From positions 1 through 43,263 of IMG/VR virus record IMGVR_UViG_3300042861_002562: 43,263 nucleotides of DNA; one strand, 5' to 3'. A program made the position numbers and the translations under genes. The stretch's first letter is position 1, and each line of letters opens with the position of its first letter. Below the pieces are notes generated by a model, which had not been told where the DNA came from, did not search any database, and saw nothing but the letters and a program-made list of their open reading frames with translations. Positions 1,608 to 43,263 of the stretch are shown here, piece by piece. This stretch comes from a virus.

Positions 1608-1615
1608 AACATTTT

Positions 1616-1621
1616 ATACAC
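1616..1621 (-). promoter_or_regulatory. GTGTAT promoter-like motif, hydrolase gene
   Basis: On - this reads AGTGTATA, and the hydrolase ATG follows after exactly 8 bases with no Shine-Dalgarno. If the motif acts as a -10 element, transcription would begin at or within about two bases of the start codon. It diverges from the copy at 1653-1658. Confidence 0.6.
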
Positions 1622-3693: not shown

Positions 3694-3699
3694 GTGTAT
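3694..3699 (+). promoter_or_regulatory. GTGTAT promoter-like motif, protease/scaffold gene
   Basis: CCAGTGTATAACC in the 34-base gap after the portal; 17 bases separate it from the ATG at 3717 and include AAAGGT as Shine-Dalgarno. A long-leader member of the motif set. Confidence 0.55.
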
Positions 3700-3716
3700 A
3701 ACCGAAAGGTAATATA

Positions 3717-5726: not shown

Positions 5727-5732
5727 GTGTAT
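5727..5732 (+). promoter_or_regulatory. GTGTAT promoter-like motif, decoration and capsid genes
   Basis: ACAGTGTATATTT, 19 bases before the ATG at 5752, with AAAGGT in the leader. The capsid gene has no motif of its own and would be read from here; the pair is closed by the terminator at 7372-7404. Confidence 0.58.
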
Positions 5733-5751
5733 ATTTAACAAAGGTAAAAAA

Positions 5752-7371: not shown

Positions 7372-7404
7372 GAAAAGCCCCCGTTTATCGGGGGCTTTTC
7401 TTTT
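7372..7404 (+). terminator. Intrinsic terminator after major capsid gene
   Basis: Perfect 12-bp stem GAAAAGCCCCCG / CGGGGGCTTTTC with a 5-base loop TTTAT, followed by TTTT. Its 3' end touches the GTGTAT motif of the next gene, so it isolates capsid transcription from downstream genes. Confidence 0.93.
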
Positions 7405-7410
7405 GTGTAT
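7405..7410 (+). promoter_or_regulatory. GTGTAT promoter-like motif right after terminator
   Basis: TTTTGTGTATTAAC. The ATG at 7419 follows after exactly 8 bases and there is no Shine-Dalgarno, predicting a leaderless message. A terminator on one side and a start codon on the other leave few alternatives for what this site does. Confidence 0.65.
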
Positions 7411-7418
7411 TAACAAAC

Positions 7419-11048: not shown

Positions 11049-11054
11049 GTGTAT
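11049..11054 (+). promoter_or_regulatory. GTGTAT promoter-like motif, tail tube gene
   Basis: AATTGTGTATTCT in the 30-base gap, 22 bases before the tube ATG, with GAGAG as a modest ribosome site. It would start the tube/chaperone message. Confidence 0.55.
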
Positions 11055-11076
11055 TCTAAATGAGAGATAACATAAA

Positions 11077-14779: not shown

Positions 14780-14785
14780 GTGTAT
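14780..14785 (+). promoter_or_regulatory. GTGTAT promoter-like motif, tape measure gene
   Basis: AATAGTGTATTCT, 24 bases before the TTG start at 14810, with AAGAGG in the leader. It would start the tape measure and tail-tip genes up to 29738, which contain no further motif in gaps. Confidence 0.55.
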
Positions 14786-14809
14786 TCTTATTGACAAGAG
14801 GATACTTTA

Positions 14810-25500: not shown

Positions 25501-28449
25501 ATGGCTGCTGATGTGCAAACAATAAAATTTCTAGGATGCTCTGTTATAAGCTTTACATCATCAATAGGATTCAACGGAAATCCTTCAACATTGTCTGTTA
25601 CTATGGCAGAAGATTTTGATGCAGGCGATGATTTTGCAGCAGATAGCCATACTATAAACAATGAGTTAGGGGCAACTTATGGGGGATCAGCATTTTCTGA
25701 TGGAAACCCAGGAACATACGCGACATTTAAAACCCCAAACGACAGTTTTGTTTTTAAAGGCTTTGTTACTAGTTACAGAAGGTCTAAAAGTGTTAGCGGA
25801 AATCTGATAAATGTAGAACTTTCAGATCCTAGATTTTTCTTCGCTAATATACCGATAATAAATGATACAAATCTTGGGATAAATAATACAAATTTCACAC
25901 CAGGTACCTGGAATATAATATCAACACCAGCAATATTCAACAATCCAATAACTCTTGATTGGAATAAATCGGGAGTAAGATTCGATAAATTAGCAAAAGC
26001 TATAGAGGAAAAAACTTTTAATTTATATTTGGTAACTGGTATTAAGATAGTTTTTCACCAATCTTTTTATTCTCAACTTATTGGCGGCTACAGATTAAAA
26101 CAGCAAGCAAGCACCGTTGAAGATGTTATAAATCAAGCGGCAAAAGACGCAAATATAGATTGGTATTTAGAGATGGGCGAGAGTGGAGGGTTAACTGTAG
26201 CTAATGTAAAAGGCATAAAAAGAAAAAACCAGTATAATTTTACGTCTAGTAACGGTTTAGAAACTTTTATATCCTCTAGATCAGATAAAGTTGTGAGCTG
26301 GGAAGTTGGTAGAGAGTTAAGACAAGATCCAACCACAACTATAGTCACAGGAGACAGGGTAAGAACGCTATGGAACACTAGTCCTAACGGAAATTTTCCA
26401 GTTTTTTGCGAATTGGGAAACGGAGCCGTTATAGACAGAGCTTTCGTTTGCTTAGATTTCTTAAAACAAGCGGGCTTCTTAACACTTCCAACTGTTGATC
26501 TTAACATACCAGAAAGCGTTTTAAGCACATTAGGCCAGCAAAGCGATGAATTTGGTAATACTAGACAAAGATATCCAAGTAGAACTAAAAACCAAGTCAC
26601 AAGAACTAGAAGAGGGTATATAGCCTCTGAGTCTATCCTAAGGGCCGCTTTATATAACAAAGCGTCATGGGAAACAGCGGTATGGTATACATATTGCAAC
26701 GGTGTTAATCCGTCTACAACACTAGCTCTTACTTATAACACGTACAATAGTTTTGATTTAGATTATGGATTTGATGCACCAACCACCCAAACGGTATCTT
26801 CGTTTTCAATGAACCCAAACTCAATTGGTGTTTACGGGCCAGCGTTTGATTTTGACACAGGAAATGTTAATGCAACTATTGGACAAAACGCTAATGCTGT
26901 ACAAGAGACTCTTAAGGAAGCTGTTTATCAGGCTACTAGAAGATGCGCTGAGGAGTATTACGGTAAAAAGTTTATTTGTAGACTTCCTGCCTCAACAATA
27001 TGTGAAAGTATAGGCTCTAGTTATGAGGCCAATCAGAAAAAAATACCTATAGAATATGATGTAGTAGATGCCGCTCCAGATATCGCTTTCTATGATTCTC
27101 AGTCGCCTATAGGTTTTCCTAATTCTCTTTTGAACTCTGACGGCAAAAGCTTTAGAGCGCCTAACGGTTTGTTTAGACCTTTCTTGTATGTAAACAATAC
27201 TACAATATCCTCAAACTTCAATCAGCAGCAATACGAATATTTAGACACAAATTCATGTATATGGGCGTACTCTGACCCTAGTGAACAAGGTGGTCAGGAT
27301 GTTACATTGTATCACTCTGGAGTAAGTGTAGAAACTTACAGATTTGATCCTAGATTTGCAATAGTAACACTTAACGAACCGATCCTGTTAGGTACTGACG
27401 GCTATAGAATGGTAACGCCATCAGCTGTAACGAATGGCGCTGTAACAGCATGGAGCACTGGAACTAATTACATAAGCCTAAGTAGAACTGACAGAAGCGG
27501 CTGTTTTTTAGATTTGTTATCTAAAGTATTTTATGATTTCACAATAGTACCAGCGGATGACGCAGATTTGAATACTAGTGGTATTAGGGTAAATGTAAAT
27601 AGAAGCGTTAAAAAGGTTTCTGTTGATTACTATTTATCACTACAAAATCAGGCTATAGCGCTTCAATCAATAGTTGGTTTGGCTGAAGTTAGATTGGTTG
27701 ATATAAATTCTCACGGTGGATTCTTTATACCTTTAGTTTGGAACTATATCAAATATGGACCTTGGGTTAATGGATTAATAAATTCTAGACCAGTTAACCT
27801 TATTGATGATAATAGACTAAATCCGTGGACTTATGGTAATCACGCTAGAATGAATGACGCTGGTAATATAATAGCTGAAAGAGCAAACACTTTAACTCAC
27901 ACAATATCTTATGCAACTGTAGTAGTGGAAGGTTATCCTGAGTTTAATTTAGGATCTGAAATAACAGCCGGAACAGACACGATGGGTTCTATAAGCGATG
28001 TAGGAGTCTCTTTTGGGATCGACGGTGTAAAAACTACATACAAATTTAAAACATTCTTTGGGCCTATAGGTTTTTCAAAGAAGTCAGAGCTAGATCAAAT
28101 ATCCCAAAACTCATTCTCATCAGGATCTAACAAGAACACAATAAATTTAGAATCTATATTTGAAAATGTTCAAGAACAAATATATAACCAAGGTGGTGGT
28201 TTTGGAGGCTCAAACTCAGCATTCGGAACAATTGGTGTTACTACTTTTGTTGGGTCTGTAAATAACGCTGGTGTTAACGGTGGCGTATCTATGAGGCCTG
28301 GCGCTGATGTTAAAAACAATAACAGCTCAAATACATCAAACTACGGCAAAACAGCTAAGGCAGAAGCTAGCGCTATATTTATACCATGTACAACTAGACC
28401 TCCTGCAACAACTAGAGGGGAAGCTCCTACAATAGAGGGAGGTTTATAG
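25501..28449 (+). CDS. Tail hub / tail-associated tip protein
   Basis: 982 residues. The first ~280 residues fit a gp27-like hub: IKFLGCSVISFTSSIGFNGN, VFKGFVTSYRRSKSVSGN, NVELSDPRFFF, then the helical insertion STVEDVINQAAKDANIDWYL. The middle is a large beta-rich region; the last ~80 residues are Asn/Ser/Gly-rich and flexible. Hubs close the tube below the distal ring and open for ejection. No peptidase or lysozyme motif is visible, so wall digestion is not its evident task. Starts 2 bases after the previous stop. Confidence 0.62.
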   Translation: MAADVQTIKFLGCSVISFTSSIGFNGNPSTLSVTMAEDFDAGDDFAADSHTINNELGATYGGSAFSDGNPGTYATFKTPNDSFVFKGFVTSYRRSKSVSGNLINVELSDPRFFFANIPIINDTNLGINNTNFTPGTWNIISTPAIFNNPITLDWNKSGVRFDKLAKAIEEKTFNLYLVTGIKIVFHQSFYSQLIGGYRLKQQASTVEDVINQAAKDANIDWYLEMGESGGLTVANVKGIKRKNQYNFTSSNGLETFISSRSDKVVSWEVGRELRQDPTTTIVTGDRVRTLWNTSPNGNFPVFCELGNGAVIDRAFVCLDFLKQAGFLTLPTVDLNIPESVLSTLGQQSDEFGNTRQRYPSRTKNQVTRTRRGYIASESILRAALYNKASWETAVWYTYCNGVNPSTTLALTYNTYNSFDLDYGFDAPTTQTVSSFSMNPNSIGVYGPAFDFDTGNVNATIGQNANAVQETLKEAVYQATRRCAEEYYGKKFICRLPASTICESIGSSYEANQKKIPIEYDVVDAAPDIAFYDSQSPIGFPNSLLNSDGKSFRAPNGLFRPFLYVNNTTISSNFNQQQYEYLDTNSCIWAYSDPSEQGGQDVTLYHSGVSVETYRFDPRFAIVTLNEPILLGTDGYRMVTPSAVTNGAVTAWSTGTNYISLSRTDRSGCFLDLLSKVFYDFTIVPADDADLNTSGIRVNVNRSVKKVSVDYYLSLQNQAIALQSIVGLAEVRLVDINSHGGFFIPLVWNYIKYGPWVNGLINSRPVNLIDDNRLNPWTYGNHARMNDAGNIIAERANTLTHTISYATVVVEGYPEFNLGSEITAGTDTMGSISDVGVSFGIDGVKTTYKFKTFFGPIGFSKKSELDQISQNSFSSGSNKNTINLESIFENVQEQIYNQGGGFGGSNSAFGTIGVTTFVGSVNNAGVNGGVSMRPGADVKNNNSSNTSNYGKTAKAEASAIFIPCTTRPPATTRGEAPTIEGGL

Positions 28450-28451
28450 TT

Positions 28452-29738
28452 TTGATAGTCCCACAAGGAACACATGGATTAAACCCATTTAGAGCTAGAT
28501 TAGGAAAAGAAGCGGCTAAGCCTAACGTTGCTATGGGAAACACCCCTGGTGATTATAATGCTTTTGATGCTAGAGGTATGGCCATAAGGTTGCCAGTAAT
28601 GGTTGCTGGATGGGGTTATGATATTTTTGGAAGACCAGTCCCTAGTAAAGCCGTTGATCTTGTAACTCTAAACGCTCAAGTAGACATGGGCTATTATGGA
28701 TTTGCCAACGATAACGCATCTGACACAAGAGGATCTCCAGCTCCTTACGGCGCAGAAACGCCGCTAAAAGATTACGTTGGCGGAGCTTTAGATTTAAGAT
28801 ATAATCAAAGACACGGAGTTTGGCAAACAGACCACTCATTCTACGCTCGTATCACAGCGGTAAACGCAACTGCCTCAACTAGCAATAAATTTTATTGGAT
28901 ATACGATTGGGAAGAGGTTGAAGTAAGATATAACCCAATTAAAAATCAAAACTCTGGAGACCCTTTTGATAGAGCCTTGTCTAACCCAGCAAAAGGAAAA
29001 GCGATAAATGTTGCAGAGGTAGTAAAAGACCCTGGTGATAGAAACTATGGATATCTTAGAGCTGGGACGATAATTGAACTAAAGTCCCATCTAGTGGCTA
29101 AGTCTGATGACGGTGACTATACCTTAGAACCTGTTTATCTTTTTAATCACACAGAGGAACAGCCAGTATTTTTACGGATAGATTGGAATTCTACTGTTGG
29201 ATACCCAGCACCGTTAACAAATGAAGATGCTTCTTATGGAGCCGCCAGTTACAATGGCTGTAATAGATTTTTATATAGGGCAGAAATAGCCTATTTTAAT
29301 GAAAGCAATACAGCTGGCGGAAAATTTGGCGCTCCTTTCGGGGCTTTTACTGGAACTAATATATTTGTTCAATGTATAAATGTAAATGAATGGGGTAATC
29401 CCGTAAACACAAGAGGTGTTGTTGCTCCAGGAATTATAATGGCAACTGGTTCGATAGTTCATTCTGCGGCAACAAACTTATCATGGACTGGATCTACCTC
29501 AACTCTCGCATCAGGCGCGTATCCTCCTGGCTTTATGATAAAGCCTATATGGCATAACACTATTGTTGAAGCAAAAAGAATGAAAAACCAGTCGGCAACA
29601 AAGTTATCGACTAACGGTCCATTGTACTACTTTAGCATGGTTAATGGTCATGACGGAGCTTGCGCTACTGGCGCTTGGCCAGCACTAAACACTACTCAAG
29701 AGGCTGGGCGCGGAGAAAACACAACGGTTCTTAGATAA
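28452..29738 (+). CDS. Tail tip structural protein, unknown
   Basis: 428 residues from TTG 28452; GGGAGG (28437-28442) lies 9 bases upstream, inside the end of the hub gene, and no ATG fits as well. Contains VAGWGYDIFGRPVP near the start and GGALDLRYNQRHGVWQ near residue 115, then beta-rich sequence with many aromatic residues (NKFYWIYDWEEVEVRYNP). It ends with a polar tail. Directly after the hub, so probably part of the tip or a fibre base. No motif allows a finer call. Confidence 0.45.
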   Translation: MIVPQGTHGLNPFRARLGKEAAKPNVAMGNTPGDYNAFDARGMAIRLPVMVAGWGYDIFGRPVPSKAVDLVTLNAQVDMGYYGFANDNASDTRGSPAPYGAETPLKDYVGGALDLRYNQRHGVWQTDHSFYARITAVNATASTSNKFYWIYDWEEVEVRYNPIKNQNSGDPFDRALSNPAKGKAINVAEVVKDPGDRNYGYLRAGTIIELKSHLVAKSDDGDYTLEPVYLFNHTEEQPVFLRIDWNSTVGYPAPLTNEDASYGAASYNGCNRFLYRAEIAYFNESNTAGGKFGAPFGAFTGTNIFVQCINVNEWGNPVNTRGVVAPGIIMATGSIVHSAATNLSWTGSTSTLASGAYPPGFMIKPIWHNTIVEAKRMKNQSATKLSTNGPLYYFSMVNGHDGACATGAWPALNTTQEAGRGENTTVLR

Positions 29739-29749
29739 TAAAGTGAAAG

Positions 29750-29755
29750 GTGTAT
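29750..29755 (+). promoter_or_regulatory. GTGTAT promoter-like motif, fibre-type genes
   Basis: AAAGGTGTATTTTAATATATG: the start codon at 29764 follows after exactly 8 bases and the leader has no Shine-Dalgarno. This predicts a leaderless message for the last + genes up to 32444. Confidence 0.6.
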
Positions 29756-29763
29756 TTTAATAT

Positions 29764-32112: not shown

Positions 32113-32444
32113 TGAAACCAAATTTTATAAAATATTTCTTAAAGGCCACTGAGCATGAAGGTGTAGAAATGCTAATGATGAATCCTCAAAAAGATAGTGG
32201 GGAATATGGGGAAGAAGGGGGAATGGCAAAATCTGACTTAAAAACACTTATCAGAAACGCGCAAGAGTTGCACGACCTTCTTTCAGATAATGAAGATATG
32301 CCAGAGCATGTTCAATCAAAAATAACACTAGCTTCAGACTACATTGTTGATGCTGCAAACTACATTAAGTCAGAAAAACAAAATCCGGGATCCGAGATCC
32401 CAGATTCTGTTGACACCGAAGAATTAGAAATGGAAGACGATTAA
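32112..32444 (+). CDS. Small acidic protein with DMPEHVQSKI helix motif
   Basis: 110 residues. The core TLIRNAQELHDLLSDNEDMP followed by EHVQSKITLASDYIVDAANY matches a helical module found in marine T4-like and other phage structural proteins (usual form 'LPEWVQSKI...A.DYI'). The tail is strongly acidic (DTEELEMEDD). Exact role unknown; head-core or virion-associated in other phages. The start overlaps the previous stop, and its own stop overlaps by 4 bases the stop of the convergent - gene. A GGGATC/GATCCC inverted repeat lies near its end. Confidence 0.5.
   Translation: MKPNFIKYFLKATEHEGVEMLMMNPQKDSGEYGEEGGMAKSDLKTLIRNAQELHDLLSDNEDMPEHVQSKITLASDYIVDAANYIKSEKQNPGSEIPDSVDTEELEMEDD
32388..32402 (+). 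repeat. Inverted repeat at the convergent gene junction
   Basis: GGGATC CGA GATCCC, 40-odd bases before the meeting stops of the + and - modules. It has no T-run, so it is a poor terminator, but it is the only visible structure where two long transcripts collide. It may be chance within coding sequence. Confidence 0.3.
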
Positions 32445-32929
32445 AAAATCTTATCTTCTATAGCTTTGCTGCACATTATGAATAATACTCTAGCTTCGGC
32501 TAGAGTTATTCTTTGCCCACACCAAAATTGATTGGACGACTTTTTAGAGCTTATTTCTAAGCCGTATGTTGGATCCTCACTATCAATTCTATAGAGCTTT
32601 ATTATTGTATTACCGTCCTTGGTTTGGTGAAAAAGACCCTTACCTTTTTGCGTCTGACCATCGCTATTTCCTAAGTGGTCCTTTTTGTCAGAAAGCACCA
32701 AGGCTATCTCTGCAAGCTCTTCCAAGTCTAGTTTTACCGTTTCATGGTTTTCTTTCCAATCAAAAACAGCGTTTCCATTTTGATCTTTAGACTCTAGCTG
32801 CTTGGCAATCGTCAGAAAGAAATTTTTTGTTGTAGGATTATACTCCCACGAAGTGGCAGAACCCTTCGTAAATTCTTTTTGATTTGGTTTATATATTTTA
32901 TATGACGGATTATATTTCTTAGGTTCCAT
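32441..32929 (-). CDS. Putative ssDNA-binding protein, PC4/Whirly-like
   Basis: 162 residues. Beta-rich with a two-fold feel: NFFLTIAKQLESKDQNG and TVKLDLEELAEIALVLSDKK, then KGLFHQTKDGNTIIKLYRID and GLEISSKKSSNQFWCGQRIT, closed by the helix AEARVLFIMCSKAIEDKI. The 'K(S/G)LFHxTxxGNxIIK' core occurs in phage proteins thought to bind single strands with a PC4/Whirly-type fold. Placed with a probable annealing protein upstream in the operon, which suits this role. Last gene of the - module; the start overlaps the previous stop (TAATG). Assigned by pattern only. Confidence 0.42.
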   Translation of the reverse strand: MEPKKYNPSYKIYKPNQKEFTKGSATSWEYNPTTKNFFLTIAKQLESKDQNGNAVFDWKENHETVKLDLEELAEIALVLSDKKDHLGNSDGQTQKGKGLFHQTKDGNTIIKLYRIDSEDPTYGLEISSKKSSNQFWCGQRITLAEARVLFIMCSKAIEDKIF

Positions 32930-33726
32930 TAGATTATGATCTCCGATGATTTGATTTCTTGTGGTATGGATTCTCCGCCGTTAGCTTCTCCTCTAGTGAA
33001 GGAGTTTAGCTTAGAAAGAACGGCATGACCCTCTGAATACGTCAATGTCGAAACGTCTTGCTTCTCTAACCCCATAATAGCAAACAGCTTTACAGGCTTT
33101 ATACCAAGTCTATTTGACATTGTATTTATTGCTATCTTAGCGCTATCTGAGATATTTTTGTTTCCGTCAGATGAAGACATTGATATATCGTTAACGTCCA
33201 TACCTTCCTGTATTTCTTCTGCAGAATAAACCTTGACTAATCCAAGCGCCTTTCTTAATGCTCTAGCTTCAGCTTTAGTAGCCGCTGTTGCGGTGCTAGC
33301 CTTACAATAGGGCCAAGGAGTATTGTCTGGATTAACATCAAATACATCCCCAATAGAAAACGACTTTGAGCTTCCGAATCTTTGAAAAGTCAAACTGCAA
33401 GATACGGTGGCTGTCGGGTCTGAAAGCGTTGGGGCCTTTATCACATCCATATAGCAGCTTATTATTTGACCAATAAGTTTCTTAAAAACTCTTCTAAGCC
33501 CATCGCAAGTAGGCATTCCATCTTTTAATTCGTTTTCAGAAAAATTAGACATAACATAGTCTGACCAACCCGGATCTGTTTCTGAAACTCCGCAAATAAT
33601 TGGTTTTATGTTCTTAGTTACTTCTGAATAAATTTCCTTAAGCTCAGAAACCTTCTTAGTCTTAAGATCGTCCAAAAGCATATCACTGTTTTCTACAATT
33701 GTGTTTATAATTTCTTCTTTCTTCAT
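32929..33726 (-). CDS. Probable single-strand annealing / Rad52-type recombination protein
   Basis: 265 residues. Distinctive central part: GMPTCDGLRRVFKKLIGQII, then a beta sheet (TATVSCSLTFQRFGSSKSFS) with NTPWPYCKASTATAATKAEA and RALRKALGLVKVYSAEEI. The 'AxTxAExRALRKALGL' helix after a sheet resembles the core of Rad52/ERF-like annealing proteins used by phages for recombination and end repair. The C-terminal ~90 residues contain a second small helical domain. Neighbour of a probable ssDNA-binding protein and in an operon with SSB. Family level is uncertain; exact clan would need a profile search. Confidence 0.5.
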   Translation of the reverse strand: MKKEEIINTIVENSDMLLDDLKTKKVSELKEIYSEVTKNIKPIICGVSETDPGWSDYVMSNFSENELKDGMPTCDGLRRVFKKLIGQIISCYMDVIKAPTLSDPTATVSCSLTFQRFGSSKSFSIGDVFDVNPDNTPWPYCKASTATAATKAEARALRKALGLVKVYSAEEIQEGMDVNDISMSSSDGNKNISDSAKIAINTMSNRLGIKPVKLFAIMGLEKQDVSTLTYSEGHAVLSKLNSFTRGEANGGESIPQEIKSSEIII

Positions 33727-34241
33727 GTGAAGCGTTTCTCCAAAAGCATTATATCTAGTTCGTCGGTCGAGGTTTTAGACTCATTTAAAAATGGGAAAAA
33801 TGAAAGGAAAATTGTTCTTATATGCTCATTTACAAAAACAATCTCATCAAAAAAATCGCAAATAGCTGGAAGAGATTTTGATATCTCTTTCATTCCAGTT
33901 ATGTCTGAAATATACCAAACCTTTTTATTTAAAATGCATCCAGACTGCATTAGATTTATAGCAGATCTTATTGTCAACGCTAAAGCATCACCTCTATAGT
34001 GCTCTATATAATTGTAATAATATAAAGCGCAAGGATTCACAAGAGCTGGTGAATTATTATCAGATGTAAATATCATATAATCGTAATCATATGTATTCTT
34101 CTTGTATAGAGTGCTTACTATTTCGTAGTACTCTTGACTCCTAACCGAATCCATGCATATAGCAATTGATTTTCTATTTGGGAATCTAGTTCCTAATAAA
34201 AACGTTTCTTTTATCGGATCCTGGTTATATTTTCCACTCAT
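33723..34241 (-). CDS. Unknown protein of the glycosyltransferase block
   Basis: 172 residues from ATG 34241, chosen because GGAAGGA lies 9 bases upstream; a further ATG at 34259 overlaps that site. Alternating strands and helices (SIAICMDSVRSQEYYEIVST, DYDYMIFTSDNNSPALV, KKVWYISDITGM, FFDEIVFVNEHIRTIFLSFF) suggest a Rossmann-like fold, perhaps a shortened glycosyltransferase domain, but no DXD or nucleotide-binding motif is clear. Overlaps the GT2 gene before it by 17 bases and the next gene by 4. Confidence 0.4.
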   Translation of the reverse strand: MSGKYNQDPIKETFLLGTRFPNRKSIAICMDSVRSQEYYEIVSTLYKKNTYDYDYMIFTSDNNSPALVNPCALYYYNYIEHYRGDALALTIRSAINLMQSGCILNKKVWYISDITGMKEISKSLPAICDFFDEIVFVNEHIRTIFLSFFPFLNESKTSTDELDIMLLEKRFT

Positions 34242-34932
34242 TTTTTTTGATCCTTCCATATATAGTTTCCCATTCTGGATTTATCTTTTCTATATTCGTT
34301 GAATTAGTTTTACTTGCTTTGTGGTTATTGTATGTAAATAATGGAATTGGAACTCTTAGTGCAAAGTAGCCAGATAGGATTATTCTGCACCAAAGATCGT
34401 AATCTTCTATATATCTAAAAGATTCATCAAAGCCTCCAACTCTTTCAATAGCACTTCTTCTAACCATCGAATTGGTTGATACAATACATTCTTTGAATAG
34501 AAGCTCTCTATCAAAATTCATCTTTAATCTTAGTTGCGCTCTGTCTGGATAACGTTCTATATAGTCGCTATAAACAATACCAACGCTATCACCTTTTCGC
34601 ATAAACTTTAAAGATTCTTCAAGTTTTCTTGGATCATAAAAATCATCCCCATCTAAGAAAGATATGAATGGTGCAGAAGATTTGCTTACACCAAGATTTC
34701 TAGCAGAAGCCGTTCCGCCATTATTTTTCTTTGTATACTTTATTTCAAAGTCTGTTTTTGACTGAAGATTAGAAATAATGTCCTGAGTTGAATCTACGCC
34801 ACCGTCGTCTATAACTATCAATTCATACATGTTTTTTGGCAGCGTTTGGTTCAAAACACTTTTGATAGCTTTTTCTATAAAATTCTCTTCATTATATGTA
34901 GTTATCACTACAGAAACTTCAGGATTTAACAT
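34225..34932 (-). CDS. Family 2 glycosyltransferase
   Basis: 235 residues from ATG 34932 (AAAGGT 9 bases upstream; the TTG at 34941 touches that site). Classic GT-A fold: VSVVITTYNEENFIEKAI at the N-terminus, VIDDGGVDST near 40-48, NGGTASARNLG near 71-81, FLDGDD at 92-97 with the metal-binding Asp94/Asp96, and the catalytic ED at 176-177 in FRYIEDYDLWCRI. It transfers a sugar from a nucleotide-sugar to an acceptor that cannot be told from sequence: cell-surface glycan, virion protein or modified DNA base. No transmembrane segments, so soluble. Middle of the glycan block. Confidence 0.9.
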   Translation of the reverse strand: MLNPEVSVVITTYNEENFIEKAIKSVLNQTLPKNMYELIVIDDGGVDSTQDIISNLQSKTDFEIKYTKKNNGGTASARNLGVSKSSAPFISFLDGDDFYDPRKLEESLKFMRKGDSVGIVYSDYIERYPDRAQLRLKMNFDRELLFKECIVSTNSMVRRSAIERVGGFDESFRYIEDYDLWCRIILSGYFALRVPIPLFTYNNHKASKTNSTNIEKINPEWETIYGRIKKNEWKI

Positions 34933-35326
34933 TGCATTCAACCTTTATTATTGAGCAACCATCTTCTAAATAGACCTTAGAAATATCTAATCCAGACGAT
35001 AAAATGAAATTGCTAGCCGCTTGAACATTAAATGCGTTTTTTATCGACTTACAGGTAGCGTGACCTATACCTAGGTCTATTTTATGATTTGCAACATTTA
35101 CAAAAACTTGATAAATATTTATAAAACCAATTGTTATTTTGGAGTCTTTTTTACAGTGCATTTTAATTTTTGCAAGCAGCGCCTCTGGCGCCTCAGAAGT
35201 TTCAAAAGTTCCAGGATATATATAGAGTTCATCTATTGCTGTATCGACTGTTTCTAAAAATTCCTGCTCGGTTAATTTTGTAAAGTTTAAATGTTCTGAT
35301 TCTTTATTTGATATAAAATATTTCAT
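34919..35326 (-). CDS. Partial methyltransferase-like protein of the glycan block
   Basis: 135 residues. The pattern DELYIYPGTFETSEAPEALL, KIKMHCKKDSKITIGFINIY, then a helix and ILSSGLDISKVYLEDG with a final strand CSIIKVECNV looks like the second half of a class I methyltransferase sheet. The glycine-rich SAM-binding motif I is absent, so it is probably not an active methyltransferase by itself. It may be a remnant or a binding partner. Overlaps its upstream neighbour by 23 bases and its downstream neighbour by 14. Confidence 0.38.
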   Translation of the reverse strand: MKYFISNKESEHLNFTKLTEQEFLETVDTAIDELYIYPGTFETSEAPEALLAKIKMHCKKDSKITIGFINIYQVFVNVANHKIDLGIGHATCKSIKNAFNVQAASNFILSSGLDISKVYLEDGCSIIKVECNVKS

Positions 35327-36323
35327 TTACAGTTCCTAGTCTTTGATTATAGGCCTTATTAAATATTGAGTTCCAATTATGAATAAAAGTTTCCATAGAA
35401 TAGTTGGATTCAATAAACCTTCTAGCGTTTGAGCCAATGCTTTCAAATCCTTCCTCATTATTGCAAATTTTAACAACCGCTTCAGCCAAAACATCTAAGT
35501 CATTCGATGAAACAGAGTTTTCTTCATTTAATATCTTAGCAACCTCTTGATATCTAGTCGAAACTATAGGCGTCCCGCAAGACATAGCCTCAAGAAGAGA
35601 CATTGGAACAGGAGAAAATTTTGAGGTGTTTATATAGCAGGCAGAATTTTTAATTTTTTCTGCAATTTTATTTGGATCTGATATAGGCCTGCTTATTCCG
35701 GGATTATCTCCAATAAGAGTAAATTTGATTTTTGGGTCTATAGACGTTGCTTTGTTTTTAACATATTCCCATTCAAAATGACCACAAAAGAAATCTCTAT
35801 CTCTTAGATAGTTTACGGTGTACACAACCTCTTTGCTACCGTTTGGTTTCCATCCAGAAAAGACATTAGTATCTATTCCGTGATTTATGACTATAGCGTC
35901 TTTGTTTTTCCAGCTTTCTTTGTTGTGTTCTGTTATACAGACATTTAAATCTGCTTTTATATTAATCGTCTCTAGCAAGGCTGGATTATTAATAGGCTCA
36001 ACATGATCTATATGTATCAAAGGAAGTCTAAGAGCATTGGCTAGGTTTTTTGAGTTTTGTATTTGAGAATATCTCTCTTGTGAGATTATAAAATCTATCG
36101 AGGATGGTATCTTTTCGAAATCGGTAACTATAACGCAGTTCTTAGGAAGCTTTCTAAACTCTTCATTCCATTTCTTAGATCCTGGCATCTCAAGCAAGAA
36201 GAAGTTATGGCCAGTTCTAGCCATCGCCTCTTGATAAGCTTCGTGTGTAGAGAATGTTAATATATCGTATTTCTCTTTAGATTTTCTATTTATTTTATTT
36301 GAAACAAACAATACTGGATTCAT
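35304..36323 (-). CDS. GT4-type glycosyltransferase 1
   Basis: 339 residues, two Rossmann-like halves (GT-B). C-terminal donor side: EVVYTVNYLRDRDFFCG, IKFTLIGDNPGISRP, CYINTSKFSPVPMSLLEAMS followed by CGTPIVSTRYQEVAKIL. The second Glu of the EX7E motif is present (LLEAM) but the first position is Ser. GGAGG lies 8 bases before the ATG at 36323, inside the preceding gene; start and stop overlap as ATGA. Sugar and acceptor unknown. Works presumably with the flanking GTs on one glycan. Confidence 0.82.
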   Translation of the reverse strand: MNPVLFVSNKINRKSKEKYDILTFSTHEAYQEAMARTGHNFFLLEMPGSKKWNEEFRKLPKNCVIVTDFEKIPSSIDFIISQERYSQIQNSKNLANALRLPLIHIDHVEPINNPALLETINIKADLNVCITEHNKESWKNKDAIVINHGIDTNVFSGWKPNGSKEVVYTVNYLRDRDFFCGHFEWEYVKNKATSIDPKIKFTLIGDNPGISRPISDPNKIAEKIKNSACYINTSKFSPVPMSLLEAMSCGTPIVSTRYQEVAKILNEENSVSSNDLDVLAEAVVKICNNEEGFESIGSNARRFIESNYSMETFIHNWNSIFNKAYNQRLGTVNEIFYIK

Positions 36324-37417
36324 ATCAAGGCCTCCATTTTTTTAGCACAAGCTTCTATGCTAAAATTGTCCTCTAGAAATTTTCTATTTTCTTCAACTAT
36401 GTTTTTAACTAATTCAGGATTGTCTAAAACAAACCTCATTTTTTCACATAGTTCGGTTGTAGATGGGTCTAGCCAGTTTTCTTGCCAATTGTAGTAAGGA
36501 TCCGAATTCATTCCAAAAACCTTTTTAGGAGTGAATGAAGATATTAAAATGTCTTGATATAAAAAGTTTTTCTTTATTCCAGATATTTTGGGAGCTATCA
36601 CTGGCTTACCTCGCATGGCAGCAGAGCAAAGCGGTAAGCCTTCCCCTTCACCTCTAGACATAGACACAAAACAATCACAGGTATCTTCTAGACTACAAAG
36701 ATCGTCATCAGAAAGCATTTCAGTTATCAAAACTATTTTGGGATAAAGTTGCTCGCGCTTACCTATTTGCTTTTTAAGCTCAGATACTACGTTTTTTATG
36801 TAAGCGGATGATTCTGATTTACTTTTACCGCTGACATAGCTCTTTATAACTAAAGAAACATTATCGTGAACAGAAAATTCTGTAAGGAACCCATGTATAA
36901 GTGCGTTTACATTCTTTTTATTTGAGTAATCAGATACTGTATAAAATTTATATGTATTTTTAACTTCTTTTCCAAGATCAAACAAAGAGTTGCTTGTTTT
37001 TGGTTTTTCCTTTGGTTGGTCTACTATTTTTATTTTTAATTTATCAACACCTGAATTGACACAAGCTAAAAACTGTTCTTCAGTTGTGACCCAAATCTCG
37101 TCCATCAACTCGCATCCAGATTTCCATCCAGAAGAATTAAAACTATCAGTTTCCCAGAAGAAATAGCCTATGTTTTTTACTCCAGATATTCTAACAAACA
37201 TATCTGGTAAACATTGTTGTATTACGATATCACAATCGTCTAAATTATTATTCTCCAATTTAGAAACAAAATCACTATTTTTAAATGGAGTCTTATTTAA
37301 AGTTATCCAGATTGGAACAACATCATGTCCAGCCTTACTTATCGACTCTATCATAGATAATGCGGCATTGCCATAACCAGTGCCGTCTTTATATACGGAT
37401 ATATAGGCTATTTTCAT
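36320..37417 (-). CDS. GT4-type glycosyltransferase 2
   Basis: 365 residues. N-terminal half begins MKIAYISVYKDGTGYGNAAL, acceptor-side GT-B; the C-terminal half has KFYTVSDYSNKKNVNALIHG, VSLVIKSYVSG and CFVSMSRGEGEGLPLCSAAM, then RGKPVIAP. The usual second Glu of EX7E is replaced (CSAAM instead of LEAM), while the first Glu is kept. AAGAGGT is 11 bases before the ATG; overlaps the preceding gene as ATGA. Retaining GT4-type transferases use nucleotide-sugars; the donor is not deducible. Confidence 0.8.
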   Translation of the reverse strand: MKIAYISVYKDGTGYGNAALSMIESISKAGHDVVPIWITLNKTPFKNSDFVSKLENNNLDDCDIVIQQCLPDMFVRISGVKNIGYFFWETDSFNSSGWKSGCELMDEIWVTTEEQFLACVNSGVDKLKIKIVDQPKEKPKTSNSLFDLGKEVKNTYKFYTVSDYSNKKNVNALIHGFLTEFSVHDNVSLVIKSYVSGKSKSESSAYIKNVVSELKKQIGKREQLYPKIVLITEMLSDDDLCSLEDTCDCFVSMSRGEGEGLPLCSAAMRGKPVIAPKISGIKKNFLYQDILISSFTPKKVFGMNSDPYYNWQENWLDPSTTELCEKMRFVLDNPELVKNIVEENRKFLEDNFSIEACAKKMEALI

Positions 37418-39132
37418 ACTATTTCAAACCTCTTTGGTTGCTCTAAGATATTATTACAAATTTTATATCTGTATTGTTCAAATATATTGAATTGATTAGC
37501 AATACCTTTAATCATATCAGCTATATCATTTCTAGAAAATCTTTCTTGTGAGTTCTTGACTCTGCTTTTTAGCATTGTGTGAAACTCTTTTCTTCCAGCA
37601 AACGACTTAAGAGAAGATTTTGGTGGTGAAAAATTCATTATTAAATAATCAATAAAATCTTCATCGTTGTTTATAGAATCAATTTCAATTCTAGATGTAT
37701 CGATAATATTTGGTTCCAAATACCATCTAGCATCTGGTAGTTTTGGCATTGATTCAAAAATATGATCCCATTTTTCATAAGTTGTATGATTTTTATGGTA
37801 GGTATTTACGGTTTCTAAAGCTTCATTTGAGATATAATCTCTAAACTCCGAAGACTCTTGGAAGAAAGAAAATATCTTTTCTCCACAATAATCTGGATCT
37901 GGCATTGCTCGTATTTGACCAGTTTCATTGGTAGACTCCTCTCTCCAATAAGCGACTGGAATTTCAGCATAAGATCCGCCTAAAGAGCTTACTTCCTTCA
38001 TTGCAGCGTACTCTGTAGAAATAGTAGGTACGCCACAAGCCTTAGCTTCTATTAGAGGGATCTCTAAGGCGCCAGCCACACTGAGTTGACAGTAAAGATC
38101 GGCGCAATTATATATTGTAGCTAAATCTTGTCTAGATAAACCTAAAACGGTATTTGGAGCGTGAGCGGTGAAATTTCCGCAGTTATTACAAGTACAGACC
38201 TCCCCGTTAAAGAATGAAGCAAAGAATGACTTACAGTATTCACAGCAGTAAGTCATAACAACCTTTGATCCAAGCTTATACTTTATAATGTCTTTTCCGA
38301 TATCAAAGCCAACATCTGGGTAACTAGTATGGAGATACAGATAAGTCTTCTCAGCTATATCATCTCTACCTGCATTTTTCCAATCGTCTAAGGCCTTTGA
38401 AAATGCGTACATCAAGTCTGGAAAAAGCTTTCTAGGTTGATTTCTCATTACAGTCAAAACGATGTTTATATCATCTTTTAGACCTAGCTTCATTCTGGCT
38501 AAGCTTTTATCAGATTTTTTAAATATATCCCTATCTACACCTGGCATTGTGTTTACATTTGCTGTTCTAATTTTTCTTCCAGAGTATTCCTTTAGAACAG
38601 AAAGGCCCCAATTTGTATATGAAGACATCATATCTACGCTAGAATAAACACCTATCCACTCTAACTTTGGTGGCTCCGAATCAACACATGCAGACCATAC
38701 GTAGTTGAATAGATATCTAGACGGAGATTTTGTAATCCACTCATCGTGCCAAAAATCTCTAAATGAGAAAACGATATCTGGCTTAAAATCAAGCACAGCT
38801 CTATCAAAAACCAAAGAACCAAACTGCGCAGTCCTATAATTATTATTATAGTTTTCTCTATCTTGAGGGTTTGTTGGAATTACAGGATAAACCTTCCAAG
38901 GAAGGCCTGCTATTCTAGCGTCGTCATCTTGAATATACGAAGCAACCTCAGCAACTTCGTATTTTCCACTAGCGTGAAGCTCTTTCAATAGATCGTTCGC
39001 CATAACAGCGAAGCCAGTATTTAGCTGACTAAATTCACCTATTAGTAGGACCCGCTTTTTTCGATCCTTGTGTGAATCCTTCGTACCCTGGTAAAACTCT
39101 TTTATGTTGTCCTGCTGTTGCGTGATTTGCAT
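37414..39132 (-). CDS. GT4-type glycosyltransferase 3 with inserted zinc ribbon
   Basis: 572 residues. GT-B start KKRVLLIGEFSQLNTGFAVM (residues 26-45), which must be included, so the start cannot be later than about residue 25. The C-terminal half contains NIVLTVMRNQPRKLFPDLMY and DLYCQLSVAGALEIPLIEAK, then ACGVPTISTEYAAM. Between these, at residues 296-318, sits a Cys cluster: CEYC (297, 300) and CTCNNC (313, 315, 318), a zinc ribbon unusual inside a glycosyltransferase. The first EX7E Glu is Gly354. A ~180-residue helical C-terminal extension follows. The ATG at 39132 lacks a good ribosome site and lies inside the small gene upstream by 98 bases. Confidence 0.78.
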   Translation of the reverse strand: MQITQQQDNIKEFYQGTKDSHKDRKKRVLLIGEFSQLNTGFAVMANDLLKELHASGKYEVAEVASYIQDDDARIAGLPWKVYPVIPTNPQDRENYNNNYRTAQFGSLVFDRAVLDFKPDIVFSFRDFWHDEWITKSPSRYLFNYVWSACVDSEPPKLEWIGVYSSVDMMSSYTNWGLSVLKEYSGRKIRTANVNTMPGVDRDIFKKSDKSLARMKLGLKDDINIVLTVMRNQPRKLFPDLMYAFSKALDDWKNAGRDDIAEKTYLYLHTSYPDVGFDIGKDIIKYKLGSKVVMTYCCEYCKSFFASFFNGEVCTCNNCGNFTAHAPNTVLGLSRQDLATIYNCADLYCQLSVAGALEIPLIEAKACGVPTISTEYAAMKEVSSLGGSYAEIPVAYWREESTNETGQIRAMPDPDYCGEKIFSFFQESSEFRDYISNEALETVNTYHKNHTTYEKWDHIFESMPKLPDARWYLEPNIIDTSRIEIDSINNDEDFIDYLIMNFSPPKSSLKSFAGRKEFHTMLKSRVKNSQERFSRNDIADMIKGIANQFNIFEQYRYKICNNILEQPKRFEIV

Positions 39133-39229
39133 ATTGCTTTATTATTTCCATGTTATCAGGGGCCGTATTTTTCAACAGCCCCTGAGATCTTAAAAATTCT
39201 AAAAATTTTTCTAGTTTTACTTCGCTCAT
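39035..39229 (-). CDS. Small protein coupled to SSB, unknown
   Basis: 64 residues: N-terminal helix SEVKLEKFLEFLRSQGLLKN, then HATAGQHKRVLPGYEGFTQG and a polar end. Start overlaps the SSB stop (TGATG), so it is probably made by re-initiation. Its last 98 bases overlap the glycosyltransferase start in another frame. The helix-like composition and precise junction support a real gene. Function not recognised. Confidence 0.5.
   Translation of the reverse strand: MSEVKLEKFLEFLRSQGLLKNTAPDNMEIIKQYANHATAGQHKRVLPGYEGFTQGSKKAGPTNR
39156..39185 (-). other. Hairpin upstream of glycosyltransferase 3 start
   Basis: TCAGGGGC / GCCCCTGA, 8-bp perfect stem with a 14-base loop, ending 24 bases before the ATG at 39132 in the - message, inside the small coupled gene. 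No T-run follows on -, so it is not an intrinsic terminator. It could slow ribosomes or lower translation of the glycan block compared with SSB. Confidence 0.4.
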
Positions 39230-39654
39230 CAGAATGGAATATCTTCTAGCTGCGCTGCTGCTTCTCTTGTTGGCCGCTTATTCTCTTTTACTACAGGGTT
39301 AGAAGACGAACTTGTTGCGGCAGTCTTCTTATTGCTCATAAACTCAAAATCCTGAATGCTTATGATGTGCTTGCTTCTCTTTTCTCCATCCTTTGTTTCC
39401 CAATTCTCTTGTTTTAGAATTCCGTCAATAAGAATTGGGTCGCCTTTTGTCATATACTCAGAAATGATACTAGCTCTAGCACCCCACATCTCGCAATCAA
39501 TGTATGTGCTTTCTTCTTTCTTTTCGCCAGACTTAGTCGTGAACTTTCTATTAATAGCCACTCTAAATCTAACAACATTGGAGTCTCCAACGTTCTTAAG
39601 CTCTGGATCTGAAACTAAGTTTGCTGCAAGAATAACTTTATTGTAATTTGCCAT
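39229..39654 (-). CDS. ssb: Single-stranded DNA-binding protein
   Basis: 141 residues. Bacterial-type OB fold: MANYNKVILAANLVSDPELK, NVVRFRVAINRKF, STYIDCEMWGARASII, MTKGDPILIDGILKQENWET and RSKHIISIQDFEFM. The linker is Ser/Thr/Pro-rich and the C-terminus is LEDIPF, an acidic tip with final Phe as in bacterial SSB, used to recruit replication and repair partners. Tetramer expected. CGAGGT is 5-6 bases before the ATG, in a 40-base gap after the polymerase gene that also holds TATAAT. Fits with the DnaE-type polymerase and exonuclease of the same operon. Confidence 0.93.
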   Translation of the reverse strand: MANYNKVILAANLVSDPELKNVGDSNVVRFRVAINRKFTTKSGEKKEESTYIDCEMWGARASIISEYMTKGDPILIDGILKQENWETKDGEKRSKHIISIQDFEFMSNKKTAATSSSSNPVVKENKRPTREAAAQLEDIPF

Positions 39655-39671
39655 GTTTTACCTCGTGAAAG

Positions 39672-39677
39672 ATTATA
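39672..39677 (-). promoter_or_regulatory. Possible sigma70-type -10 box before ssb
   Basis: TATAAT on -, 17 bases before the SSB ATG. A -35 box is not convincing. If real, ssb and the glycan/recombination genes below it could be read early by host RNA polymerase without the GTGTAT system. Confidence 0.3.
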
Positions 39678-39694
39678 GTAAGCCTAAAAGTTTT

Positions 39695-41212
39695 TTATAC
39701 GTTTTTAATTGAATTTACAGACCAACCGAATCCAGTTCCCTTAAGCACTACGGAGTAGTATGAACCAACCGCTATAGAGTTTTTAAATTTCTCGTATGTG
39801 TCGGGGAAGCAAACCACGTTTATAAAACCAGTGTTGTCTGCAATAGAAAGTTGGCACATATTCTTGCCAGGATCTTTGCCCTTTTTTGTTTTTGTAATCT
39901 TGATATCGTTTATTTTTACAGTTAGATTCGCAATCATGTTTTTGTTGACACGCATTTTATTGAAACACTCCTTGCAACTCCAGTCGTCTTCGACATTTAC
40001 ATTGTAATCATAACTAAAGGCTATTCCAAGAAGATCTTTTTCAACAGAATTTTTTATCACTGCAGAGTCGCTAGACTTTATGTCAATTGACAAAGCTTCT
40101 GACATAACTATGTCTTTTCTTTTCTTTACGCATTGTTCAAAAGAACATTTTTTAACAGCCTCAATCAAATCTAGAACTCCGCTTTCTGAATTTATTTTTG
40201 AGAAAATAAACTCGATCTCTTTTTGAGTTAATTGCTTAAGCATGTTGTAGACAGATAGCATGCACGATCTAGATAGTCCGTATTCATCGCAAGCCCCACA
40301 ATTTATAAGGCTTTCTAGGGCTAGTGATCTTATTTTTTCTGAAGACGCGAAGTGTGTGATAAGTAAACTAGTAAAACTAGCTGGTCTAATAGATTCTATC
40401 AGTTCGGCGTCAGATTCACCAACCTGTTTTATGTGAGATAGACCATAATGAATGACGCCCTCTTTTATTGAGAAGTCAAAATTTGACTTTGAAACAGAAG
40501 GTTTTTCTATGCTTATACCAAGCATCTTAGCCTCGTTTATCAAATCCTCTATCTCCTCTCTAGGCTTCTGTTTACCTTTGCTGTAGGTTAGATAGACGCA
40601 ATAAAATTCAAGCGGAAAGTTTGCTTTTACGTAGGCTGTTTTGTAAGCCCAAAGCGCATATTTTTTAGCATGAGCATCGTTAAAAGCATATCTACCAGCG
40701 CCTTCGATAAGAGAAAAAAGCTTTTCAGCCATTTCTTTTGATCTACCGTTCTTAAGACATCCTGCTATGAATTTGTCCCTAAGATCAATAATTATTTTTT
40801 GATCCTTCTTACCAATGCCTTTTCTAAGCTTATCAACAATCACAAGTCTATCAAGGTATGGAAGATCCCTCCAAGCTATTTCGCCACCAAATTTCATCAG
40901 CTGTTCTTGATATATAAGAACACCCATTGTTGGGGACAGTATCGAATTAACAGACTCATCATTGTAATCTGGCTTCTCAATTAATCCACTTTTTACCTTT
41001 GAATAAGTCTCGGTCATTCCAGATTCTAGGCACGCAGGTCTTATCAATGATATTACGGCACTAAGCTCATTTATATTAGAGGGCTTTATTGTAGCAGACC
41101 ATTTCTTACCGAGATCACTCTCTAGTTGGAATACGCCTATAGTGTGACCATTCTGTATTAGCCGCCAAGCCTTGTCGTTTTTAAGGGATATATCTGATGT
41201 GTCAAACTTCAT
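39695..41212 (-). CDS. DNA polymerase III alpha (DnaE) C-terminal half
   Basis: 505 residues, matching bacterial DnaE from just after the palm: IGVFQLESDLGKKW, LIRPACLESGMTETYSKVKS, PTMGVLIYQEQLMKFGGEIA, RYAFNDAHAKKYALWAYKTA, then KDLLGIAFSYDYN and an OB domain (NLTVKINDIKITKTKKGK to the end). The PHP domain and the palm with the catalytic Asp residues are absent. An in-frame TAA lies five codons before the ATG at 41212, so this is a separate gene, not a truncated read. The catalytic half must be encoded elsewhere for this to be active. No Qxx(M/L)F-type clamp motif is evident. No Shine-Dalgarno before the ATG. Stands with a DnaQ-like exonuclease and SSB. Confidence 0.85.
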   Translation of the reverse strand: MKFDTSDISLKNDKAWRLIQNGHTIGVFQLESDLGKKWSATIKPSNINELSAVISLIRPACLESGMTETYSKVKSGLIEKPDYNDESVNSILSPTMGVLIYQEQLMKFGGEIAWRDLPYLDRLVIVDKLRKGIGKKDQKIIIDLRDKFIAGCLKNGRSKEMAEKLFSLIEGAGRYAFNDAHAKKYALWAYKTAYVKANFPLEFYCVYLTYSKGKQKPREEIEDLINEAKMLGISIEKPSVSKSNFDFSIKEGVIHYGLSHIKQVGESDAELIESIRPASFTSLLITHFASSEKIRSLALESLINCGACDEYGLSRSCMLSVYNMLKQLTQKEIEFIFSKINSESGVLDLIEAVKKCSFEQCVKKRKDIVMSEALSIDIKSSDSAVIKNSVEKDLLGIAFSYDYNVNVEDDWSCKECFNKMRVNKNMIANLTVKINDIKITKTKKGKDPGKNMCQLSIADNTGFINVVCFPDTYEKFKNSIAVGSYYSVVLKGTGFGWSVNSIKNV

Positions 41213-41236
41213 ATTTTGTGTTTTTTAAAAAATATC

Positions 41237-41776
41237 TTAAAAACCCTTAAGAATTAAGCCTATTCCATTGGCTACTTTGTATTTATGATTAAAATCAATG
41301 TTATCCATCAGAGTAACTCCTTTGATTAAAAGATCGTCAATAATTACCGCGCATTTTTTTGCTGTAATACTATTAAATTGCTTTTCGGTTTCATTAGGAT
41401 CGTTACCACCGTCTAGGTAGTAGATATCGTAGTCTTTTGCTGAGATTATTTCTCCTGCGTCTGCTAACTCAAAGTTAATTTTATAACCCATATGAGATGC
41501 CGCAAAATAACTATTTGCTATATTATCTAAATGAATGTCGCAAATGGTTAGAGATCCTCCATTATTTTTTATATAATTGCCAAAGATTATATCGGACCAT
41601 CCTGATCCATATCTCCATCTCTCATCAAAGGTTTCTATCGCCCCAACCTGAAAAATATCTACAGAACCTCCGTTAAATAACGATAAAACTTTAGAAAATA
41701 TTAAATCTCTATCAGTGTTATCGAAAGCCTCTGTTTTGTTTACTATTCTTTCGTAAGCATATTTAAAATTATTCAT
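41237..41776 (-). CDS. Class I methyltransferase-like protein
   Basis: 179 residues. VDIFQVGAIETFDERWRYGS followed by GWSDIIFGNYIKNNGGSLTI and CDIHLDNIANS fits a Methyltransf_24-type SAM domain, in which the first glycine loop is 'VGxxE...GxGwS' and the Asp of CDIH binds the ribose; DYDIYYLDGGNDPNETEK is the later strand. Relatives are often found in glycan gene clusters. Here it lies between an exonuclease and the polymerase half, apart from the glycosyltransferases. The start lies within the end of a 33-residue microORF; GGAAAAAT is the ribosome site. Confidence 0.6.
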   Translation of the reverse strand: MNNFKYAYERIVNKTEAFDNTDRDLIFSKVLSLFNGGSVDIFQVGAIETFDERWRYGSGWSDIIFGNYIKNNGGSLTICDIHLDNIANSYFAASHMGYKINFELADAGEIISAKDYDIYYLDGGNDPNETEKQFNSITAKKCAVIIDDLLIKGVTLMDNIDFNHKYKVANGIGLILKGF

Positions 41777-41870
41777 TTATTTTTCCAGCTTCATAATTCA
41801 TTGTTAATCCAAACCCGTCTAATAAATCATTCAAGCATTGGGGATTGGTTTTAAACGGCAACTTGTTCAT
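41769..41870 (-). CDS. 33-residue microORF linking exonuclease and methyltransferase genes
   Basis: Fills the otherwise empty 74-base gap. ATG 41870 overlaps the exonuclease end by 20 bases, with AAAGAG just upstream, and the stop lies 8 bases inside the methyltransferase gene. Product: MNKLPFKTNPQCLNDLLDGF plus 13 residues, ending GKINE; the composition looks protein-like. It could be a real small protein or only serve coupled translation. Confidence 0.42.
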   Translation of the reverse strand: MNKLPFKTNPQCLNDLLDGFGLTMNYEAGKINE

Positions 41871-42507
41871 TTTTCTCTTTCGTATTTATCTTTGGTCTGA
41901 TCTTAAAATTCATAAAGTTCATATATCTTTGGAACATCTTTTTTGTTATGTCTACATCCTCAGCAGCGTCGTGATTTGCGGTTGCTCTCTTAAGTCCTAT
42001 TATCTCTGCATACGTGTCCATCTTGTTGTTTTTCAAACCGTCTCTTCCAAATACGCAAAACATCAATGGAAACATGTCTATTTGCATGTTAGACCAGGGC
42101 AAATCATCTTTTTCTGATATTATCTTGTATTCAAGCATCTGGTGCTTAAGGAATGGTATGTCAAAGTTTACTATGTTGAAGCCAACAAGAACTGGGGATG
42201 TCCAAAACTTCTTTGTATGATTAACAGAGTCTAAAAACTCTTTGAACTTTCTTATGCCAACCTTTGGATGAAGTCCATCAGATTTAGCCCTACTCCATAA
42301 ATCTTCGCCAATCACCTTTATAGCGTCTGGACTAGCCCTTTCGGGCTTTTGAGGCTTTATAAGCAAATCAAACCTGCCATTTTCTATTTCAGAGTAGTCT
42401 GAATATTTTAAAGCAACCGCTGATATCTGAACAATCTCAGCGCCGTCTTTAGGATCTAACCCGCTAGTTTCTAAGTCAAAAACAACGAAATTCTTATTGT
42501 TGGCCAT
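41851..42507 (-). CDS. DnaQ-like 3'-5' exonuclease (DEDDh)
   Basis: 218 residues. Exo I: FVVFDLETSG with Asp11 and Glu13. Exo II: VGFNIVNFDIPFL with Asp116. Exo III: NHDAAEDVD with His179 and Asp184, giving the DEDDh class. In a Pol III-type replicase this is the proofreading subunit; with a DnaE half and SSB in the same operon that role fits. It could also act in nucleic-acid degradation. The C-terminal ~20 residues are basic. Starts 8 bases after the zincin gene. The stop lies inside the microORF. Confidence 0.85.
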   Translation of the reverse strand: MANNKNFVVFDLETSGLDPKDGAEIVQISAVALKYSDYSEIENGRFDLLIKPQKPERASPDAIKVIGEDLWSRAKSDGLHPKVGIRKFKEFLDSVNHTKKFWTSPVLVGFNIVNFDIPFLKHQMLEYKIISEKDDLPWSNMQIDMFPLMFCVFGRDGLKNNKMDTYAEIIGLKRATANHDAAEDVDITKKMFQRYMNFMNFKIRPKINTKEKNEQVAV

Positions 42508-42515
42508 GAATCATT

Positions 42516-43127
42516 TTAGGCGCCTATGAAGGATCTTTCGACGTTTTTTGGAAGACTCCTAAAAGACCTTTTAAGCGATCTTCCACTGGCAGCCATTTGC
42601 TTTTTACCTATCTTAGCGTCCCATTTTTTGGTTTTTATTGAAACCCAATAACTATAAAGAACGGCTGAAGCTTTAGATTTATATATGTCTAGATCAATTG
42701 GAAGATTGAATTCTTTTATTAGTTTTACTGCTCTTCTCTCTGCGTTTAATTCACAATCGATCATTTTTTGAGTGTACCTAATTAAGATTTTATTATTCAA
42801 AGTTATCTCATTATTTATCCACATACAAACCGCATTTTGAACACTGCCATATTTTCTATGATCGCAGAACTTGTACGTTTTGTCTCCCTCAATCCACTGT
42901 AAAACATGCGCAAACTCATGAACTAGTGTTGAAAGAAAATCTTGTGCGGACCCTCCGCTGGCACAGGCAAGTATTGAACCGCCTTCGTCAAAATATCCTA
43001 AAACTCTAAACCCAAAAGGTTTCATAACAACAGACTTGCCCCTGCCTATCTTAAGCTTAATGCCATTTCTAGCGCAAGTTTTTTTGACAAAATCTAAGAA
43101 ATCACCTGGGATCTGATGTGTTGGCAT
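42516..43127 (-). CDS. Zinc metallopeptidase-like protein (HExxH)
   Basis: 203 residues. LVHEFAH at 69-74 gives the zincin motif (His70, Glu71, His74) followed by VLQWIEGD; the third ligand is probably Glu126 or Glu130 in DCELNAERRAVKLI. This arrangement resembles small SprT- or peptidase-like phage zincins. The C-terminal 50 residues are strongly basic (KWDAKIGKKQ, SGRSLKRSFRS), suggesting nucleic-acid contact. No signal peptide. First gene of the - operon, 8 bases after GTGTAT, no Shine-Dalgarno. Substrate unknown. Confidence 0.7.
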   Translation of the reverse strand: MPTHQIPGDFLDFVKKTCARNGIKLKIGRGKSVVMKPFGFRVLGYFDEGGSILACASGGSAQDFLSTLVHEFAHVLQWIEGDKTYKFCDHRKYGSVQNAVCMWINNEITLNNKILIRYTQKMIDCELNAERRAVKLIKEFNLPIDLDIYKSKASAVLYSYWVSIKTKKWDAKIGKKQMAASGRSLKRSFRSLPKNVERSFIGA

Positions 43128-43131
43128 AATT

Positions 43132-43137
43132 GTGTAT
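43132..43137 (+). promoter_or_regulatory. GTGTAT promoter-like motif, + half of palindrome
   Basis: Half of GTGTATACAC (43132-43141), pointing to the gene at 43157 with a 19-base leader. It overlaps the - copy in the central TATA, so only one direction can be used at a time. Confidence 0.5.
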
Positions 43138-43141
43138 ACAC
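43136..43141 (-). promoter_or_regulatory. GTGTAT promoter-like motif, - half of palindrome
   Basis: Reads AGTGTATACAC on -; the zincin ATG follows after exactly 8 bases without a Shine-Dalgarno. It would drive the long - operon down to 32441. Confidence 0.6.
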
Positions 43142-43156
43142 TATTGGGTTAGTTAA

Positions 43157-43263
43157 ATGTCCCTATCAAAATCAATACAAAAACTCCTTAACAAGTTAAC
43201 CGCTAGCTATAAAGGATTCATGGTTGGCGATACTATTAAGAACATAAATACGAAGTGTTTACA
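43157..43263 (+). CDS. 5' part of an unknown gene (runs off window)
   Basis: ATG 43157 opens a frame that stays open to the last base: MSLSKSIQKLLNKLTASYKG, then FMVGDTIKNINTKCL. Basic and helical at first. It has no clear Shine-Dalgarno. Divergent from the zincin gene and placed behind the palindrome promoter, which supports it. Too little is visible to name it. Confidence 0.5.
   Translation, partial: MSLSKSIQKLLNKLTASYKGFMVGDTIKNINTKCL

Follow-up and report, generated by a model that had tools for sequence, protein, structure and literature searches.

Two divergent genes near the end of a viral contig lie 29 bp apart, and the question raised by this locus is whether the short palindrome between them serves as a promoter for both. 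The window analyzed here (43,263 nt) is a 43-kb virus contig. It belongs to a group of uncultured tailed phages in which the largest contigs closely related to it measure ~122–125 kb. Searches for GenBank phage relatives gave no DNA match, no terminase or capsid match, and only distant DnaE matches; a search for the host through capsid relatives in genomes returned only two MAG contigs, at 48–49% identity and from unrelated phyla. From the comparisons described below, we consider it likely that the palindrome acts as a phage promoter in both directions, with GTGTATW as its −10-like core and no visible −35.

The palindrome at the divergent boundary

The intergenic gap (43128–43156, 29 bp) separates a minus-strand gene starting at 43127 from a plus-strand gene whose ATG is at 43157. 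Within it, GTGTATACAC at 43132–43141 is a perfect 10-bp palindrome and the sole exact copy in the 43-kb window. It reads GTGTATA on both strands, the property by which a bidirectional promoter is recognized, with the two copies overlapping by 4 bp. An earlier sequence-only reading had described overlapping motif copies in a perfect palindrome between divergent genes, and its positions and gap agree with ours. It had also placed the minus-strand ATG 8 bases away; 7 nt lie between motif and ATG, and 8 is the count to the A. The longer plus-side leader that it noted corresponds to a motif-to-ATG distance of 18 nt, compared with 7 nt on the minus side. A first-order Markov model predicts 0.012 copies of GTGTATACAC per window, and for perfect 10-bp palindromes of any sequence the expected number in a gap of this size is 0.035. 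We also considered an ordinary sigma-70 promoter and rejected it; the sole overlapping match (9/12, minus strand 43169–43140) scored at the level of shuffled sequence.

The minus block (Table 1) is probably read from the palindrome, its extent as an operon being deduced from the sequence. Its designation as a replication/glycan operon is upheld: it encodes the C-terminal half of DnaE, a DnaQ-like exonuclease, and SSB, followed by glycosyltransferase-like genes (SSB and glycosyltransferase-like genes assigned by sequence). On the other side, the 85-aa plus gene heads an operon of small genes in relatives. DNA polymerase III alpha is apparently split in these phages (window 39695–41212, minus strand; G003 27202–29070 and 36380–37900), into an N-terminal half of PHP type (622 aa, seen in relatives) and a second half of 505 aa that begins at the finger domain. 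Their operons are distinct and flank the palindrome locus, one on each side; no intein was seen by eye.

Table 1. Coordinates of the boundary features and of further GTGTATW sites in the window.
Feature	Position	Strand	Remark
Palindrome GTGTATACAC, predicted common core of two opposed promoters	43132..43141	.	Invariant in 7 contigs / 4 lineages
GTGTATA element, 18 nt before ATG 43157, leadered class	43132..43138	+	Spacing classes
GTGTATA element, 7 nt before ATG 43127, leaderless-type class	43135..43141	-	Spacing classes
203-aa protein with HExxH motif (SprT/metalloprotease-like, without Pfam match), first of minus operon	42516..43127	-	
Start of small gene, cut by window end; 85 aa in relatives	43157..43263	+	
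Minus block: HExxH protein, DnaQ-like exonuclease, DnaE C-terminal half, SSB, glycosyltransferase-like genes	32441..43127	-	
GTGTATA, 7 nt before ATG of endolysin-like gene	1615..1621	-	
GTGTATA with Shine-Dalgarno, before 662-aa gene	3694..3700	+	
GTGTATA with Shine-Dalgarno, before gene at 5752	5727..5733	+	
GTGTATT, directly 3' of intrinsic terminator (7372-7404), 7 nt before ATG 7419	7405..7411	+	
GTGTATT, leadered class, before gene 11077	11049..11055	+	
GTGTATT, leadered class, before 2579-aa (tape-measure-sized) gene	14780..14786	+	
GTGTATT, 7 nt before ATG 29764	29750..29756	+	

GTGTATW as an intergenic signal

GTGTATA is the 7-mer most enriched in intergenic DNA, both in the window alone and in five pooled relatives, where 35 copies are intergenic and 26 fall in the much longer coding DNA. 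All five window copies are intergenic (5/5), although intergenic DNA makes up 2.7% of the window (binomial p ~1e-8). The consensus is GTGTATW. Many GTGTATW copies also occur within genes, which counts against a promoter reading. The first six bases all matter: GTGTAT followed by N8-ATG was found in 32/181 cases, compared with at most 8 for each single-base variant. We sought a −35 element upstream of the motif sites and found nothing convincing, with no upstream position carrying much information. A literature search for a GTGTATA phage promoter returned none.

The distance to the start codon falls into two classes. Across five genomes, 29 of the 132 GTGTATW sites have an ATG exactly 7 nt downstream, a peak that is absent for scrambled motifs, and N7-ATG matches are far fewer for single-base variants. 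A second, broad mode spans 15–26 nt; distances of 12–14 nt are empty and almost no sites fall at 10–14 nt. At leadered sites, the stretch separating the motif from the ATG is rich in purines and resembles a Shine-Dalgarno sequence (e.g., GTGTATA-ACCGAAAGGTAATATA-ATG). The two classes and the gap between them fit a −10-like element with transcription starting ~8 nt downstream, and GTGTATW is very probably such a core, as judged from its sequence context. The ATG would then lie either at the RNA start or far enough away to accommodate a Shine-Dalgarno sequence, with intermediate lengths presumably useless. The sharpness of the 7-nt peak suggests that this class yields leaderless mRNAs.

Intrinsic terminators end just upstream of 4/91 motif sites, compared with 65/20,000 random windows. 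At the terminator at 7372–7404, the T-run touches GTGTATT, and the gene that follows probably starts at ATG 7419 rather than at the upstream ATG at 7308. In a distant relative (G012, L062–L069; capsid 41% identical), the top intergenic 7-mers are TATAAAT and TTATATA instead of GTGTATA, hinting at a different late promoter.

Conservation of the symmetry and competing explanations

The palindrome is present at the same boundary in 7/7 contigs carrying either flanking gene at at least 58% identity. These contigs (the window, L092, L093 (near-identical to the window), L094 and L095, L096 (G003), and L089 (G004)) represent four lineages, between which the flanking proteins are 58–65% identical. Among the lineages, 10/10 palindrome columns are invariant, compared with 2/60 flanking columns, and pairwise identity is 100% within the palindrome versus 36–43% in the 20-bp flanks. 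This conservation in diverged relatives is the strongest evidence against a chance palindrome, which it rules out. The minus ATG lies 6 nt from the motif in L089 and 7 nt from it in every other lineage. The plus ATG is 18–19 nt away in the other lineages and exactly 7 nt away in L089. Together with motif enrichment and start-codon spacing on both sides, conservation thus gives good support to the opposed, overlapping promoter elements proposed in the sequence-only reading.

Farther afield, the palindrome is absent from the more distant relatives G005–G012; at its exonuclease boundary, G007 carries only a plus element. More remote HExxH-gene homologues (30–38% identity) lie without the palindrome in a different gene context. 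Divergent gene pairs with separate GTGTATW elements 44 bp apart, offering a non-overlapping arrangement to compare with the palindrome, were observed in G007 (91059–91134) and G009 (57098–57173).

If the site were a promoter in one direction, most likely minus, the second half-site would be incidental and the plus gene would be read from elsewhere. The weak Shine-Dalgarno sequence (TTGGG) in the plus leader before ATG 43157 and the tighter minus spacing agree with such an arrangement. However, unlike the flanks, the second half (CAC beyond GTGTATA) does not vary among the four lineages, the plus-side spacing in L089 falls on the 7-nt class, and the 29-bp gap holds no other plus motif; we therefore regard a single direction as improbable. 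The ten invariant bases and the L089 spacing instead indicate that both half-sites are probably in use, and by this sequence-based argument transcription probably proceeds in both directions.

Divergent genes flanking a perfect dyad also form the classical layout of an operator, at which a dimeric repressor or activator would bind the 10-bp palindrome and control both genes. An operator is nevertheless very unlikely, as the half-site occurs alone across the genomes, orientation-specific and at a fixed distance from the ATG, whereas the palindrome is found once per genome where it occurs and its conserved symmetry stops at the limits of the two overlapping motifs. We give just as little credence to GTGTATW acting at the RNA level, in ribosome binding or processing. 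The fixed 7-nt spacing to the ATG does resemble a translation signal, but leadered sites have a Shine-Dalgarno-like stretch of their own downstream of the motif, no site is spaced at 12–14 nt, and some sites lie directly 3' of intrinsic terminators.

A model for the proposed two-way promoter and its known counterparts

From the motif, its enrichment, the spacing classes, conservation, symmetry, and the sigma-like genes of relatives, all observed at the sequence level, we infer transcription, its start positions, the sigma factor used, the temporal class, and an exclusion effect. RNA polymerase with a phage-encoded sigma factor probably reads GTGTATW, and because the element is fully symmetrical, it could bind in either orientation. 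Minus transcription would begin at ATG 43127 or no more than one or two bases from it, so that the HExxH/exonuclease/DnaE-C/SSB block would be carried on a leaderless mRNA, and plus transcription would begin near 43146, leaving a leader of ~11 nt before ATG 43157. The two predicted starts (43127 and ~43146) are ~19 bp apart, a geometry in which one bound polymerase would physically block the other. A mutually exclusive "choice" between the two operons, as previously proposed, is a plausible but hypothetical outcome. A more elaborate scenario, in which the symmetry was selected as a switch, with polymerase competition balancing a leaderless replication/repair operon against a leadered late-gene operon, both read by a divergent phage sigma lacking region 4, is speculative and in our view rather unlikely.

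Relatives encode two families of sigma-70-like proteins (L075, L078, L080, L085, and L131–L157). Members of one family (174–188 aa) have regions 2 and 4. Those of the other (194–199 aa) have a weak region 2 and are encoded beside late genes; a search for a region 4 match in them gave none, and no PDB sequence match was obtained. The predicted structure of a 198-aa member is of modest confidence (pLDDT 76), and its named fold matches are mostly sigma factors, none with E < 0.001. Neither gene lies within the window. In the window's 99% capsid relative (L151, L005 same contig), the 194–199-aa gene is located at one contig end, and its counterpart here would fall beyond the limits of the window. 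A promoter without a −35 would fit a sigma factor without region 4, as in T4 late transcription (PMC1524935), and we suggest this pairing by analogy.

The two-way type of promoter is already known, and the motif and phage group appear not to have been described before. The locus offers a sequence-level case in which promoter symmetry itself is maintained across diverged phages, something difficult to demonstrate for the bidirectional promoters of bacteria. The resulting rule for promoters, GTGTATW followed either by N7-ATG or by a short leader with a Shine-Dalgarno sequence, can be used to map transcription units in an uncultured group without a GenBank phage relative.

Bidirectional promoters with a common symmetrical −10 element are known in bacteria and archaea from the work of Warman, Grainger, and co-workers (PMC12825309, PMC10268837). 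Like these, the phage element has one near-symmetrical core common to opposite strands, so that steric exclusion is possible. The predicted distance of ~19 bp between phage starts compares with 18 bp as the commonest start-to-start distance in bacteria (PMC12825309, PMC10268837) and lies in the 7–25 bp range that defines bidirectional promoters. In contrast to the known examples, the phage site has GTGTATW rather than TATAAT, is perfectly palindromic, would serve genes in both directions, and is kept across diverged phages, being known here from sequence. Bidirectional promoters measured in E. coli are too weak for competition unless one direction is strongly activated (PMC12825309).

T4 late promoters (TATAAATA) are read by gp55 with gp45 and gp33 (PMC1524935). 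The sites described here would likewise be short phage promoters of a single element, lacking a −35 and similarly spaced from the start, and a small sigma-like protein whose only match is a weak one to region 2 is encoded by relatives. They differ in having GTGTATW instead of a TATAAATA-like motif and in the leaderless spacing class; the 194–199-aa protein gave no sequence or significant fold match to gp55. Both the promoters of mycobacterial leaderless mRNAs (PMC4633059) and the late promoters of phage AR9, which transcribes with its own multisubunit polymerases (PMC5312081), resemble the sites described here in having a core whose position puts the transcription start at or close to the start codon, although their motifs and polymerases are different.
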